64,000 bases of DNA from assembly GCF_012295615.1 (NCBI RefSeq), contig NZ_CP051183.1, positions 2,755,001 through 2,819,000 of the forward strand, read 5' to 3'. The position numbers and the translations under genes were made by a program. The stretch comes from Bermanella marisrubri. Its GTDB lineage: Bacteria; Pseudomonadota; Gammaproteobacteria; Pseudomonadales; Oceanobacteraceae. Position 1 is the stretch's first letter, and every line of letters begins with the position of its first letter. Below are positions 30,925 to 37,838 of this stretch, one piece after another. The notes under the pieces are model-generated. The model searched no databases. It saw only the letters and a list, made by a program, of their open reading frames with translations, and was not told the origin of the DNA.

Positions 30925-31767
30925 ATGAATCTAGATCCAAGCCAATTACACCAAGATATTGAACAAGCTGTCACGCGCGCCCTCAGCGAGGACGTAGGTA
31001 CGGGCGATATTACTGCTATGTTGATCCCGGAAGAAAACACGAGTCACGCTAAAGTGATTACTCGCGATGATGCCGTTATCGCTGGTCAAGCATGGGTCAA
31101 TGAGACATTTAAGCAACTCGACGACGGTGTAGAGATCACTTGGCATGTACAGGACGGAGACCAAGTTGAGGCTGGTAGCACCCTCTTTGAACTGAGAGGA
31201 TCATCTCGTTCTTTATTGACAGGGGAGCGTACAGCATTGAATTTTTTGCAGACCTTGTCTGCTGTGGCAACCAAGTGTCACTTTTATAGTCAACAGGTGG
31301 CACACACTCAAGTAAAACTGCTGGATACTCGAAAAACCCTGCCTGGCCTTCGCATGGCTCAGAAATACGCGGTGAGTCAAGGAGGCTGCTATAACCACAG
31401 AATTGGTTTGTTTGACGCCTTCCTAATTAAAGAGAACCATATCCATGCTTGTGGTGGTATTCGACAAGCTATTGAAAAAGCGCAAGAGATAGCCCCGTTA
31501 AAGCCGGTTGAAATCGAAGTTGAAAGCTTTGCCGAGCTAGAGGAAGCTCTAGATGCTGGGGCTGACATCATTATGCTGGACAACTTCTCCATAGAAGAAA
31601 CCAAGCAAGCTGTCGATATGGCAAAAGACCAAGCCAAACTAGAAGCCAGTGGTGGCATTACGGATGACACCCTAGTCAAGATCGCCGAGACCGGTGTTGA
31701 TTACATTTCGATCGGTGCCTTGACTAAGGATGTTAAGGCCGTGGATTTAAGTATGAGGATGGTGTGA
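30925..31767 (+). CDS. nadC: Quinolinate phosphoribosyltransferase (carboxylating)
   Basis: A 280-residue enzyme of de novo NAD synthesis: quinolinate + PRPP to nicotinate mononucleotide. Seen: [26 protein letters not shown], the [22 protein letters not shown] substrate block, [44 protein letters not shown] and [12 protein letters not shown]...SIGALT. Full length. Its stop codon overlaps the GTG start of the next gene (GTGA), so translation is coupled to a membrane ligase of unrelated function. Confidence 0.97.
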
Positions 31768-33317
31768 TTAATTTACTCGCAAAACACGGTCATTTCACCG
31801 TAAACCATATACTAGCGTTAATCGCCACTACCTTCCCCCTTATTGCTTTGCTTGGTTGGCAGCAAAGTGACTTATTTGATTCACCTTTAAAGCACCGTCC
31901 AATTATTATTTGGTTAGAACTTTCGTTCGTATTGCTTCATATATTTCTGCCCGGAAAAGTAAGAGACATTAGCTGGCAAACGCTCGGGTTAGTTGGTGCA
32001 TTCGCACTTTTGGGATCACTATCATCCATAAACGCGGAAAACACGTATGCATCAATAGCAAGACATGCAGAAATTATATTGCATATTATATTTGGCATAT
32101 CGATATACCAACGATGCAATGACACGATTACTCGCTATACACTGACTATCGGTATAATTATCGCATTTATTTACACGGTACTTCATGTCGCCCTTTTGCT
32201 TTCTATTGTGCCCACCAACTACGACTGGGTGGCGCACTTTCCCATGTTTAGCAACATTAGGCACTGGGGATATTTACTCATACTGGTGATGTGTATTATT
32301 TACAGTCAAATTTTAAAAGAGCAGACCAGTAAATATCTTTACATATTATTATTCTTGACTGTATTCTGCATTTTTTGGAGTGGTGGGCGAGGAAGCTTCA
32401 TACCTGCCATGTTCCTGATTGTTAGTGCGAAATTTATTTGCAATATATCGTGGCGTACTTATCGCATAACAATTCTTGTCACAGTCGCCGCAGGCTTCTT
32501 AGCAAGCGCCCTTCCTGTTGAAAACGGTAGCCTAGGGATAGCCAGGCTTTTTTTCCTCGACCGATTAGACGCCGTCAGCAATCTCGATATAAATCGGATT
32601 TCAGCAAATCGCATATCTATTTATATCAGTTCTTTTAAAGAACAATTACAAAGTGCCCCTCTTCTGGGTATGGGAGCCGACAACTTTCGATACAGTTTTG
32701 CGCAAGACACCCACGGGATTCCCACCCAACCCCATAGCGTTTTAGTACAAATTATCTACGAGTATGGAATCATCGGGAGTTTGATTATTGCAGGATTGCT
32801 TTACCGATTTATTAATATGAGCTTAAAATGCGCCGAGAATAAACAAGAGAGGTTCGCCATATTATGTATTTTAGGCGCTTTCTTTTTCTCAGCGTCCGTC
32901 GATGGGCATTTCTACCATAGCTTTTCTTTATTATGTATTTCTCTTGTCGCGCCATTGCTAATCAACAGCCGCCAAGAAAATAATCATGGCAGAGTTCAAG
33001 TAAAACGAACTGCTATTTTTATCGGGATTATCCCTCTTCTATTCATTATGTACAAACACACGCAAACATTCATCGCGTACTCAAGCCCTCTTAAAAATAC
33101 ACAACAAATAGAAACCGTACGGTCTTTTCCATCTGTTATTCTGAATAACAATTGGTTGAATTCCGACAACCCAGATCTATTAAAAGCAGCGTTTGAACTA
33201 GCCATTGTGCGTTCTGATGTTCAGTGTGGAAATGCTGTAATGGCAAAATTAATGGGCATAGATATCGATGATATAATCCCGCCCGCCTGTGAAAATCGTA
33301 AAATATCGATCTGGTAA
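31764..33317 (+). CDS. O-antigen ligase / PglL-like membrane protein (Wzy_C type)
   Basis: A 517-residue inner-membrane protein with about ten to twelve helices. The Wzy_C signatures are SGGRGSFIP (about 206-214) and, after a periplasmic loop, [10 protein letters not shown] ... [19 protein letters not shown] (about 301-337), where His324 matches the conserved loop histidine of WaaL/PglL enzymes. Family members transfer lipid-linked glycans to lipid A (WaaL) or to pilin serine/threonine (PglL, TfpO). The position between nadC and pilA, where Pseudomonas carries pilin-modification genes, favours pilin glycosylation; that is inference. The start is GTG overlapping the nadC stop. Base composition looks more AT-rich than the flanks. 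Confidence 0.75.
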
Positions 33318-33327
33318 TTAACCGTAT

Positions 33328-35244
33328 ATGCATGTAAATACGAAAGGTACGCGCAAAAACACCACCCTAATTTTATTGTATGCGATACAGGTATCTTTGC
33401 TTTTTTTACCATTATTAAATGAAATCTACACAGCCCTAAACCTTACCAGTTCACTGTCAAACAATAGTAATTTTGATACGAACTCAATACTTCACAGCGA
33501 AGCAAAATACTATTTTATTCAATACATTCTCGTCATTATCGCGTCAGTAGCATTTTATATTTACTGTTTGCATTTACTTATCTCGCGACTCAGATCAGTC
33601 ATCCCAGCAAACAAAAACATACTGATCACACTCGTGAGTCTAATATGTTTTTTGTCACTTATAACAACCAATCAGTTTTTTTACCCTCAGTCCTCGTATC
33701 AACTGGCCTTATTTGAGGGGTATCATCTTCTGCCGTGGCTTTCATTTATCGTTCTAGGGTGCCTGTTATTGGCATCTATATTAAAGCACTACAAGGTCGC
33801 TTGCGTGGTTGCCGCGCTCGCAATCTTTAGCTTTATCAGCAACCCCGTCACAAGCGATTACAATAAAAAGAATGTTTTAATCATTGGTATAGATTCGCTG
33901 CGACCTGAATTGATCCATGAATACATGCCATTTCTATCTAAGCAATTATCGGACGCCATGGTTTTCGACAATGCGTACACGCCATTTGCGAGAACTTATC
34001 CTGCTTGGATGTCCATTATAACAGGAAGACACCCTGCCAATAATGGCGCTCGCTTTAACTTACAACCCGAAGATATGCTTGCAAAAGACAACCTGTATCT
34101 TCCAAAGGTCTTACAAGAACACGGATATACCACCATCTATGCTGCCGATGAACGCCGCTTCAGCAACCTTGGTTCGACTCAAGGATTTCAACATGTAATT
34201 GGGCCAAGAACAGGGGTAAGCGACTTTGTCTTGGGCGACTATGCAGACTTTCCTACTACCAATCTTTTATTATTGACGCCAGTTGGTAAATGGTTATTGC
34301 CCGAACTTTATGGAAACCGAGCGGCCGACCACTTGTATCGCCCAGAGCATTTCTCGAATTTGCTCACAAACGAATTAGATCATGTGATACATGATGATCC
34401 TATTTTACTGGCCACGCATTTTTGCCTGCCCCATTGGCCTTATACATTTGTCAATAGTCATCCAGTTGAAACTTATGAACAACAACCACTCTATCCATCA
34501 AATCTGCAAGCTGTCGACAATCAAATTCAAGACTTAATGCTATATCTGGAAGAACGAGGTATTTTGAAAAATAGCATTCTGGTTTTTCTCAGTGATCATG
34601 GCGAAAGCTGGGGGCATTTTGAAACAACATTTAAAGACAAGCACGGCATACCTTACGAATCATCTGATTATGGTCATGGCATGAATATACTAAGCCCGGC
34701 AAGCCACCAAATTTTGTTGGCGTTTAAGGGGATCGCAATTGACCCACAGCAAATGATCAGACCTACCTCGCTGACGGACGTTGCCCCGTCCCTGTTGTCA
34801 GGGCTAAACCTATCTAGCTCGTACGACAGCCAGAAAATGGATGGTAGAGATTTGACCGCTCCTGCAAACCAATCTTCGGAGCTTGCTTTTGAATCTGGCG
34901 TCATTCTCTCTGCGGCGAATACAGACAGCCCAGACCCAAGAGCTGTGGCTCGAGAGGGGGCGCATCGCTTCAAAGTCGATGGCAACGGCTATTTGCGCCT
35001 AAAGCACACGATGATCCCAAGCATGATCCAAAACAAGCAAGTTGGACTTCGCGTAGACAACAAAGGGCTATTTTTAGTCCATCACAATCAAAAACCACAG
35101 CTCATGCACATCGATTACGCAAATAACCATTATCAATGGATTAATCCCAGAGAAACCCATCATGTTGAAGAGACTCTAACAACTCGATTTTGCGCGCTTT
35201 ACCACAACACCGCCGCAGTAGGTATGCCGCAGCTATGTCAATAA
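33328..35244 (+). CDS. Membrane-anchored sulfatase / phosphoform-transferase family protein
   Basis: A 638-residue protein with five N-terminal helices (about 13-32, 62-86, 96-114, 135-152, 156-172) and a periplasmic alkaline-phosphatase-superfamily domain. Metal-site residues visible: Asp189 in IGIDSLRPE, nucleophile candidate Thr223 in ARTYPAWMSIITGRHP, Asp423-His424 in LSDHGESWG, and His450 in YGHGMN. A Thr in place of the Cys/Ser of true sulfatases is shared with phosphoethanolamine and phosphoglycerol transferases (EptA, LtaS, Neisseria PptA). A transferase of a phospho-group onto pilin, its glycan or LPS is thus plausible but unproven. It lies 10 bp after the ligase gene, in one operon. 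Confidence 0.7.
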   Translation: MHVNTKGTRKNTTLILLYAIQVSLLFLPLLNEIYTALNLTSSLSNNSNFDTNSILHSEAKYYFIQYILVIIASVAFYIYCLHLLISRLRSVIPANKNILITLVSLICFLSLITTNQFFYPQSSYQLALFEGYHLLPWLSFIVLGCLLLASILKHYKVACVVAALAIFSFISNPVTSDYNKKNVLIIGIDSLRPELIHEYMPFLSKQLSDAMVFDNAYTPFARTYPAWMSIITGRHPANNGARFNLQPEDMLAKDNLYLPKVLQEHGYTTIYAADERRFSNLGSTQGFQHVIGPRTGVSDFVLGDYADFPTTNLLLLTPVGKWLLPELYGNRAADHLYRPEHFSNLLTNELDHVIHDDPILLATHFCLPHWPYTFVNSHPVETYEQQPLYPSNLQAVDNQIQDLMLYLEERGILKNSILVFLSDHGESWGHFETTFKDKHGIPYESSDYGHGMNILSPASHQILLAFKGIAIDPQQMIRPTSLTDVAPSLLSGLNLSSSYDSQKMDGRDLTAPANQSSELAFESGVILSAANTDSPDPRAVAREGAHRFKVDGNGYLRLKHTMIPSMIQNKQVGLRVDNKGLFLVHHNQKPQLMHIDYANNHYQWINPRETHHVEETLTTRFCALYHNTAAVGMPQLCQ

Positions 35245-35245
35245 C

Positions 35246-35366
35246 TGACAAAAAATGTCACCCCAGATAAAACCATTGTGAGTGTTTTTTGTACGATTGT
35301 GAGAAAACTCACACAAAACATCTACTTATGTCAAAAAATCAGGCAAAAGACGTCTTTATTTTGTCA
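35246..35366 (+). promoter_or_regulatory. Cluster of TGTCA elements (possible PilR sites) upstream of pilA
   Basis: TGTCA occurs at 35256-35260 (within an inverted repeat TGACA-N5-TGTCA starting at 35246), 35329-35333 and 35362-35366. PilR of Pseudomonas binds TGTC-containing elements upstream of the pilA sigma-54 promoter. The whole 35245-35555 gap holds no gene, only these sites, the CRP-like palindrome and the promoter. Confidence 0.4.
35298..35313 (+). promoter_or_regulatory. CRP/Vfr-like palindrome upstream of pilA
   Basis: TGTGA-N6-TCACA, a perfect match to the CRP consensus half-sites and spacing, inside a 16-bp palindrome. It is about 100 bp upstream of the pilA -24/-12 promoter. In Pseudomonas the CRP homologue Vfr controls type IV pilus functions; binding here is inference. 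Confidence 0.6.
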
Positions 35367-35396
35367 TTTAAATCATGAATACTACCCATCAGTGAT

Positions 35397-35412
35397 TGGC
35401 ACATGGTATGCA
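35397..35412 (+). promoter_or_regulatory. Sigma-54 promoter of pilA
   Basis: TGGCAC-N5-ATGCA, one base off the -24/-12 consensus (TGGCAC-N5-TTGCA) with correct GG-N10-GC spacing. It lies about 145 bp upstream of the pilA start, giving a long 5' UTR of about 130 nt. RpoN/PilR control of pilA is established in Pseudomonas. Confidence 0.8.
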
Positions 35413-35555
35413 GTAATCAAAGCGATTACGCCGCCTAGGTGGCAAGCATCCAATTAATATGGTTCAGCTTTTAGCGTTGGATTAGATTAATCAAAACCAA
35501 AAATGGGACATCAAGAGCCCAGTCAACTCAAACTTAAAAAGTGGAGCGGTCTACT

Positions 35556-36020
35556 ATGAAAGGTCAAAAGGGTTTTACTCTGATTGAATTAATGATTGTT
35601 ATTGCAATCATCGGCATCTTGGCATCTGTTGCGATTCCTCAGTACCAAGATTACACATTACGTACTGACGCAACTAACTCTTTGAACGCGGTTCGCCCAG
35701 TTCAGCTAGCGGTTAGTGAATATGCGGCTCGCTACAGTGCTCTACCAGGCACAACCAGTGCCTTAGCAGACTATACTGGCATCTCAACCACGGCAACTGA
35801 TCACGCTGCAGGCAAGGTATCTCAAATTTCCATTAGCGCCAATGGCGTGTTAGAGGTTCAATTTGACACAACGTCTAACAACCCAGATGTTCCTGCTGGC
35901 CTATCTGGTACGACTTATCGTTTGACACCAACTATCAGCTCTACTGGTGTAGTAACCTGGGCGAGCTCTGCTGCGGGTTCAAGTCCTATCCCAGCAAAAT
36001 ACCTACCAAAGCTTAAGTAA
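35556..36020 (+). CDS. pilA: Type IV major pilin
   Basis: A 154-residue prepilin. The short leader MKGQKG is cut before Phe (G6|[22 protein letters not shown]), with the conserved Glu at mature position 5 and a hydrophobic assembly helix. The globular domain is rich in Ser, Thr and Ala and has no cysteine, so it lacks the C-terminal disulfide loop of typical Pseudomonas pilins. The tail [18 protein letters not shown] is a low-complexity region of the kind that is O-glycosylated in other pilins. I start at the ATG at 35556 (GGAG 9 nt upstream); a GTG five codons earlier would lengthen the leader. Confidence 0.93.
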
Positions 36021-36040
36021 ATCACTCAGTTGCTTGAATA

Positions 36041-36063
36041 AACCCGCTTCGGCGGGTTTTTTT
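36041..36063 (+). terminator. Intrinsic terminator after pilA
   Basis: AACCCGC / GCGGGTT stem closed by a TTCG tetraloop and followed by T7, 20 bp past the pilA stop. It lets pilA be made at much higher level than pilBCD. Confidence 0.93.
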
Positions 36064-36158
36064 ATGTCTATGGATCACGCTTTTGACCCACCTGACACTG
36101 TTCTCTTTAGGTAAATTCGGTATGATTAGCTCAACTTAAGAATAAGAATTGCGTTTAT

Positions 36159-37838
36159 ATGTCTATAGTTACAGGTATCGCCCGCCAGTTTGTCGAGCAA
36201 GGGCTTGTTAACGAACAAAAAGCCTCAGAAATCAGCAAAGATGCTCAGAAAGAAGGACAATCATTTATTGTTCAAAGCCTTCTGTCCAATGCTTGTACAT
36301 CAAAAGATGTTGCCTTGTTGGTCAGCAATGAGTTTGGCTTGCCGTATCTTGATCTATCAGCCATGGATCCTGAGCATTTTGCGGCAGACTTGATCACTGA
36401 GGACCTGTTGGAGAAACATCGTTCACTTCCGCTTTTTAAACGCGGTAACCGTCTGCACATTGCTCAAGCAGACCCCTCTGATATCGCTGCATTGGACGAC
36501 ATAAAGTTCGCGACAGGCATGACAGTTGACGCAGTAGTAGTGGAATACGACAAGCTCAATGTCATTTTAGAAAAACTGCTCGCAGGCAACAGCACGTTTG
36601 ATGATCTAGGGGATGACTTAGATCTCGAAGAAGATCCTGCCGAAGACAAACCCCAAGAAGAAGATAATACTGGTGATGACGCCCCTATCGTGCGCTTTGT
36701 AAACAAAATGTTGCTAGATGCGATAAAGATGGGCAGCTCCGATTTGCATTTTGAACCCTATGAAAAACGCTATCGCGTGCGTTTCCGAACTGACGGTGTC
36801 CTTCATGAGGTTGCATCTCCACCAATAAATTTATCTGGAAAAATCGCTGCCCGTCTCAAAGTTATGTCACGTATGGATATTTCAGAGCGTCGCGTGCCGC
36901 AAGATGGCCGAATCAAGATGAAAATTTCCAAATCTAAGGCGATTGATTTTCGGGTAAATACTCTGCCAACACTGTGGGGGGAAAAAATTGTATTACGAAT
37001 TCTAGACCCTTCAAGTGCACAAATGGGCATCGATGCACTGGGTTACGAGCCTGAGCAAAAACAACTATACATGGAAGCTCTAGCACAACCACAAGGGATG
37101 ATTTTGGTCACAGGACCGACTGGATCGGGTAAAACTGTATCTCTTTACACAGGCCTAAACATCCTGAACAAAGAGGGCACAAATATATCCACCGCAGAGG
37201 ACCCGGTAGAAATCAACCTGGAAGGTATTAACCAAGTCAACGTAAATACCAAAGTCGGTCTCGACTTTGCCGAAGCACTTCGCTCCTTCTTACGCCAAGA
37301 CCCGGATATCGTCATGGTGGGTGAGATTCGAGACTTGGATACGGCGGGTATTGCCATTAAAGCTGCACAAACTGGTCACTTGGTTTTATCAACACTGCAT
37401 ACCAATAGCGCGCCAGAAACCCTGACTCGTTTGATGAATATGGGAGTACCTGCGTTCAATATCGCGACTTCAGTCAGCTTGATCATAGCCCAGCGCCTCG
37501 GTCGGCGCTTATGTAGCCAATGTAAAGAACCAGCCGATATCCCAAAAGATGTATTATTAAAGGCTGGAATGACCGAAGAGATGCTAGCGGAAGCCGAGAT
37601 CTACAAGCCTGTAGGTTGCGATGCTTGTTCCGGCGGCTATAAAGGTCGAGTCGGTATTTATGAAGTGGTTAAAATAACCGATGCCATGTCCCGTATTATA
37701 ATGGAAGGTGGTAATGCGATGCAGATAGCCGATGTTGCACGAAAAGAAGGCTTTGCAAACCTGAGAAATTCCGCTTTAAAGAAGGTTTGCCAAGGTGTTA
37801 CCAGCTTAGAAGAAGCCAACCGCGTGACCGCTGAATAA
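36159..37838 (+). CDS. pilB: Type IV pilus assembly ATPase PilB
   Basis: A 559-residue hexameric secretion ATPase that powers pilus extension. The N-terminal T2SSE_N domain (about 1-150) is followed by an acidic linker (about 150-170) and the ATPase domain with Walker A GPTGSGKT (about 320-327), Asp box, Walker B GEIRD (about 388-392) and His box. A zinc-binding four-cysteine motif (CSQC ... CDAC, about 452-490) is intact. It lies 138 bp after the pilA gene and starts pilB-pilC-pilD. Confidence 0.97.
   Translation: MSIVTGIARQFVEQGLVNEQKASEISKDAQKEGQSFIVQSLLSNACTSKDVALLVSNEFGLPYLDLSAMDPEHFAADLITEDLLEKHRSLPLFKRGNRLHIAQADPSDIAALDDIKFATGMTVDAVVVEYDKLNVILEKLLAGNSTFDDLGDDLDLEEDPAEDKPQEEDNTGDDAPIVRFVNKMLLDAIKMGSSDLHFEPYEKRYRVRFRTDGVLHEVASPPINLSGKIAARLKVMSRMDISERRVPQDGRIKMKISKSKAIDFRVNTLPTLWGEKIVLRILDPSSAQMGIDALGYEPEQKQLYMEALAQPQGMILVTGPTGSGKTVSLYTGLNILNKEGTNISTAEDPVEINLEGINQVNVNTKVGLDFAEALRSFLRQDPDIVMVGEIRDLDTAGIAIKAAQTGHLVLSTLHTNSAPETLTRLMNMGVPAFNIATSVSLIIAQRLGRRLCSQCKEPADIPKDVLLKAGMTEEMLAEAEIYKPVGCDACSGGYKGRVGIYEVVKITDAMSRIIMEGGNAMQIADVARKEGFANLRNSALKKVCQGVTSLEEANRVTAE

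Follow-up and report, generated by a model that had tools for sequence, protein, structure and literature searches.

A sigma-54-type pilA promoter with a candidate direct CRP/Vfr-cAMP input in Bermanella marisrubri

Described pilA promoters and the Bermanella locus

Several PilR sites lie upstream of pilA in Pseudomonas aeruginosa, and pilus function and cAMP are linked in Pseudomonas. The hallmarks of PilR recognition described for P. aeruginosa are a NifA-like TGT-N11 element and GTCT elements, Vfr-dependent effects are reported there on other pilus genes, such as those of the minor pilins, and loss of PilA lowers cAMP (PMC6058289). The Vfr site has been given as ANWWTGNGAWNYAGWTCACAT, in which TCACA is the more conserved half (PMC8160232), and the CRP-family protein Clp is reported to bind the pilA promoter region directly in Lysobacter enzymogenes (as cited in PMC8160232), which provides a precedent for direct binding of a CRP-family protein at pilA. 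In E. coli, CRP-cAMP inhibits the sigma-54 promoters dctA, glnAp2 and Pu via AR1 and alpha-CTD, and IHF has an architectural place at Pu (PMC3900584).

The window analysed here, a stretch of 64,000 nucleotides (C1:2755001-2819000) from a genome of 3.55 Mb, contains a pilA gene with the following features.

35556-36020, + strand: pilA, type IV major pilin of 154 amino acids (Pfam N_methyl and Pilin above cut-off)
36040-36059, + strand: terminator-like hairpin after pilA (1 found, 0.9 expected in shuffled sequences)
35397-35412, + strand: sigma-54 -24/-12 promoter TGGCAC-N5-ATGCA, letters TGGCACATGGTATGCA, with 1 mismatch to TGGCACN5TTGCA
35423, + strand: predicted pilA transcription start, from the -24/-12 numbering

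The ATG of pilA lies at 35556, whereas the list of open reading frames begins the gene at a GTG at 35541. On the 3' side of pilA lies pilB, followed by ORFs that, from their translations, are presumably pilC and pilD; the closest match of a PilB query among named contigs was an uncultured Thalassolituus (83% identity). The genes directly 5' of pilA (31764-35244) encode a Wzy_C (O-antigen ligase-type) protein and a sulfatase-family membrane protein, possibly pilin-modifying enzymes. A search of a plasmid collection with the promoter and gene returned six records, with short matches only near the pilin start. Two family relatives (L046 and L053) carry two tandem pilin genes before pilB, with a sigma-54 site at the first; by the rule used, the second pilin is without such a site in L046 and has its only match inside the first gene in L053.

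The sigma-54 promoter and the phased upstream array

A sigma-54 site with -24/-12 spacing had been claimed for pilA in an earlier note on this DNA, and a scan for TGGCAC-N5-TTGCW with GG at -24 and GC at -12 confirmed it at 35397-35412; rpoN, which that note had proposed to look for, is present in the genome (TIGR02395, 516 bits, cut-off 277). Two genus relatives yielded a pilA promoter, G005 (L026) and G003 (L028), and both carry a sigma-54 site at the corresponding place before pilA; searches for further genus relatives, by promoter DNA and by the N-terminus of PilB, added no other pilA promoter. Sigma-54-like sites at up to 2 mismatches number 26 in the window against 26.4 expected, so the letter match alone is little proof, and the site derives its weight from its position before pilA and from its recurrence at pilin genes. 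A scan of 35100-36200 with the sigma-70 consensus found no sigma-70-type promoter. The predicted leader is long (35423-35555, 133 nt), the distance from the sigma-54 site to the pilA ATG being 159 bp here compared with 91-99 bp in L026 and L028, and RNA structure in this 5' leader was no better than in shuffled sequences (z -0.38). Just 5' of the sigma-54 site lies a 32-bp AT-rich block (35352-35383), well conserved with L026, which matches no scanned IHF or sigma-70 consensus.

Further upstream, the following TGTCA-type elements were found.

35236-35260, no strand assigned: phased array TGTCA-N5-TGACA-N5-TGTCA, candidate PilR upstream activating site, with half-sites at 35236-35240, 35246-35250 and 35256-35260
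35329-35333, + strand: isolated TGTCA half-site, with no counterpart at the aligned place in L026
35362-35366, + strand: isolated TGTCA within a conserved block that L026 shares, with TGACA at this place

The half-sites of the array recur every 10 bp (one helical turn) in alternating orientation, and the first of them falls within the final codons of the ORF upstream. The earlier count of three TGTCA elements between 35246 and 35366 was right, but a fourth TGTCA and the inverted TGACA had been missed, and with them the array (TGTCA at 35236, 35256, 35329 and 35362; TGACA at 35246).

Recurrence of these elements was assessed in the 330 bp upstream of pilin genes of the order. The first set was drawn from loci L025-L134, leaving out L027, L029, L034, L050, L054, L055, L074 and L096, in which no pilin was identified by motif, and gave 108 regions, or 99 after removal of near-identical ones; the held-out set of 48 loci, 8 of them without a usable pilin and with 7 duplicate regions dropped, gave 44 regions, some of which precede minor or second pilins. 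Among inverted repeats of 5-base half-sites separated by 0-12 bases, TGACA-N5-TGTCA was the most common, present in 43 of the 99 first-set regions (82 at up to 1 mismatch and 92 at up to 2); the held-out regions had 14 exact copies, 23 at up to 1 mismatch and 27 at up to 2. Over both sets the exact core occurred in 57/143 regions, while the best of 59 permuted dyads reached 1. A third half-site, TGAC, follows exactly 5 bp on in 25/143 regions, any other gap of 0-13 giving at most 2, and the full triple is confined to 4/143 regions, namely this promoter, L026, L028 and one other. Among held-out regions the core at up to 1 mismatch accompanied 22 of the 29 with a sigma-54 site by the rule used and 1 of the 15 without; the first set was less clean (73/86 with and 9/13 without), which counts against the association. 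Here the core begins 151 bp before the sigma-54 site, and 59 of 73 first-set values of this distance fall between 100 and 157. Genome-wide, the exact core has two places, the pilA promoter and C1:1376495, the latter lying inside an ORF and looking like chance.

The array is the most conserved upstream element of these pilin promoters, and its recurrence and its distance to the sigma-54 site match what a binding site for a sigma-54 activator would show. PilR probably binds there. Of the sigma-54 activators in the genome (six full and three weak matches, one of them NtrC above cut-off), PilR is favoured by the surroundings of its gene and by the tie between the array and pilin genes. PilS-PilR-like genes, the presence of which the same note had suggested checking, are found beside the minor pilin genes: the PilR-like protein has a receiver, a sigma-54 AAA+ domain and a Fis-type HTH, and its gene adjoins the minor pilin genes, and a nearby kinase has a PilS-like 6TM domain barely above cut-off (29.6 against 27). 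Counting against the assignment, none of the NCBIfam models among the 25 listed for the PilR-like protein was above cut-off. Between the PilS-like kinase and PilR-like genes, all on one strand, lies an OsmC/YcaO-domain gene (TIGR03549, 1414 bits); this locus is L166:6635-12004, or C1 at about 911634-917003 in the genome's own coordinates. No report of TGACA-N5-TGTCA as a PilR site was found in the accessible parts of the open-access literature, and the phased array lets the pilA activator site be defined sharply, and in a form open to test, throughout the order.

The CRP/Vfr-type palindrome and its proposed role

The 136-bp spacer between the array and the sigma-54 promoter contains the following sites.

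35298-35313, no strand assigned: perfect CRP/Vfr-type palindrome TGTGA-GAAAAC-TCACA, letters TGTGAGAAAACTCACA, with 0 mismatches to TGTGA-N6-TCACA
35277-35281, + strand: an additional half-site by its letters, TGTGA, two turns (21 bp) 5' of the palindrome

The perfect palindrome claimed earlier was thus found as described, and is centred at about -117.5 from the predicted pilA start. A crp/vfr gene, the absence of which had been named as counting against the claim, is present: the genome has one CRP above curated cut-off (365 bits, cut-off 266), closest to P. aeruginosa Vfr (358 bits, compared with 295 for E. coli CRP), together with a class I adenylate cyclase (376 bits). No report of a sigma-54 pilA promoter with a CRP/Vfr box was found in the accessible parts of the open-access literature.

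On balance, we consider it somewhat probable that PilR and sigma-54 drive this pilA promoter and that cAMP acts on it directly through CRP/Vfr, by an input that is labile in evolution. Phosphorylated PilR would bind the array at 35236-35260 and contact sigma-54 RNA polymerase at 35397-35412 through DNA looping, and a cAMP-loaded dimer of the Vfr-like CRP would sit on the palindrome in the spacer, where it would bend the DNA and so tune the contact between PilR and polymerase, making pilin output depend on cAMP. The protein at each site, the role of looping and the sign of the cAMP effect are what we infer in this scheme. No IHF site with 1 or no mismatch to the consensus was found between the array and the gene (35231-35560), and CRP may therefore take over here the architectural role of IHF at Pu. 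Such a promoter would give a one-step link between pilin synthesis and cAMP, and if CRP acts directly on pilA, the PilA-cAMP circuit would be closed at the pilin gene itself.

A serious rival to activation is the opposite sign, in which CRP-cAMP on the same box would hold the polymerase poised via AR1 and alpha-CTD, high cAMP then lowering pilin synthesis as negative feedback. This is a tentative reading, somewhat less than evenly probable, and agrees with the inhibitory effects of CRP-cAMP at dctA, glnAp2 and Pu, but these cases come from work in E. coli, and Pu reportedly lacks a potential CRP site (PMC3900584). The sequence here does not fix the sign, and there is a slight lean towards CRP helping the loop, and thus towards activation, rather than blocking.

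Recurrence of the palindrome and comparison with known systems

Both of these readings presuppose that the palindrome is functional. That it is instead a chance match or a relic, with PilR and sigma-54 alone governing pilA and cAMP acting indirectly as is usually described for Pseudomonas, is judged unlikely. Within this genome, abundance favours chance: TGTGA-N6-TCACA at up to 1 mismatch occurs at 2 sites in the window against 2.4 expected and at 71 sites genome-wide against 82 for the reversed control, and perfect sites are without excess, the pilA palindrome being one of 7 in 3.55 Mb, compared with 8 for one permuted dyad. Placement argues the other way, since 6 of the 7 perfect sites lie wholly outside ORFs of the tiling used and the seventh overlaps just the last bases of one, compared with 1/8 for the permuted dyad; 5 of ten 1-mismatch sites examined (of 64) were outside ORFs. 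Seven sites per 3.55 Mb also correspond to odds of only about 6 in 10,000 of finding one in the roughly 300 bp 5' of a given gene. The other six perfect sites (L008-L012 and L014, at position 1501-1516 in each) are themselves candidate CRP targets, five of them wholly outside ORFs.

Within the genus the palindrome is poorly conserved. Pairwise alignment with L026 gave ATTGA-TTTACT-TCACA at the aligned place, with 8/10 letters kept, one half intact and two mismatches in the other, and in 420 bp of L028 no TGTGA-N6-TCACA better than 3 mismatches was found, so the palindrome is conserved in neither of the two close relatives (n=2). Lack of conservation in relatives was the other outcome that had been named as refuting the claim, and it applies in part, the site being degraded in L026 and absent from L028. 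The degraded L026 site lies 100 bp before its sigma-54 site, compared with 99 bp here, an agreement that counts in favour of a functional site. On present data the perfect palindrome appears to be particular to this species, or to have been lost elsewhere.

Across the order, a dyad with the same spacing recurs at related pilin genes, in counts made after the best array match in each region had been masked. In the first set the dyad at up to 1 mismatch was present in 14/99 regions (29 permuted dyads: mean 1.14, maximum 7), other gaps of 0-12 giving 0-5 compared with 14 at gap 6, and was perfect in 4/99, with 0 for the controls. Masking took out TGTCA-type matches in L037, L038 and L044, and 1-mismatch sites beyond 330 bp in L032 and L033 were left uncounted. 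Held-out support is thin: the dyad was present at up to 1 mismatch in 3/44 regions (controls: mean 0.34, maximum 2), one of which (L202) lies before a second pilin that lacks a sigma-54 site; none of the 44 was perfect, one control reaching 1; and at 2 mismatches gap 4 equalled gap 6 with 11 each, which counts against the dyad. Because many regions came from Marinobacter (25 regions, 9 with the dyad) and Microbulbifer (12 regions, 2 with the dyad), counts were also made per lineage, using 59 lineage labels assigned by hand from record titles and handles. The dyad at up to 1 mismatch was found in 17/143 regions and 7/59 lineages, whereas 29 permuted dyads averaged 1.28 lineages and reached at most 4; the 52 of 59 lineages without it count against a general role. 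In the 16 regions with both sites, the dyad lies 46, 47, 50, 54, 54, 66, 66, 67, 67, 67, 68, 70, 77, 99 (here), 145 and 145 bp from the sigma-54 site. The difference between 99 bp here and 67 bp in the Marinobacter group is 32 bp, about three turns, and this agreement in phase is suggestive only.

It is very improbable that the palindrome is a further site for PilR or another activator, since, for all the similarity of its letters to the array half-sites and the several PilR sites upstream of P. aeruginosa pilA, its orientation and spacing differ (TGTGA-N6-TCACA compared with TGACA-N5-TGTCA), each dyad has its own preferred gap, and the CRP-type dyads were counted under masking of the array.

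Returning to the direct CRP/Vfr input, the proposal that the pilA promoter ties pilin production to cAMP through a direct CRP box is supported by the sigma-54 promoter, the regulator genes and the recurrence of the dyad above controls, and is weakened by the poor conservation in the genus. For the order as a whole, we regard it as an even chance that the sigma-54 pilA promoter of several lineages, this genome's included, receives a direct cAMP input via a CRP/Vfr dimer in the loop between the PilR array and the polymerase, with the input repeatedly gained and lost.

Of the known systems, Clp of Lysobacter enzymogenes differs from the case proposed here in belonging to another order of bacteria and in answering to c-di-GMP rather than cAMP. 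The P. aeruginosa pilA promoter, which is governed by PilS-PilR and RpoN, is alike in its sigma-54 site before the major pilin gene, in the PilS-PilR-like genes next to minor pilin genes and in TGTC-type elements upstream, and differs in having TGT-N11 and GTCT elements where the Bermanella promoter has a TGTCA/TGACA array with 10-bp phasing (PMC6058289). With dctA, glnAp2 and Pu the locus shares the combination of CRP-cAMP with a sigma-54 promoter and an upstream-bound activator (PMC3900584). It differs from these inhibitory cases in that a perfect palindrome occupies the spacer of its pilin promoter. If CRP does bind there directly, pilA would be a natural example, complete with binding site, of CRP acting at a sigma-54 promoter.
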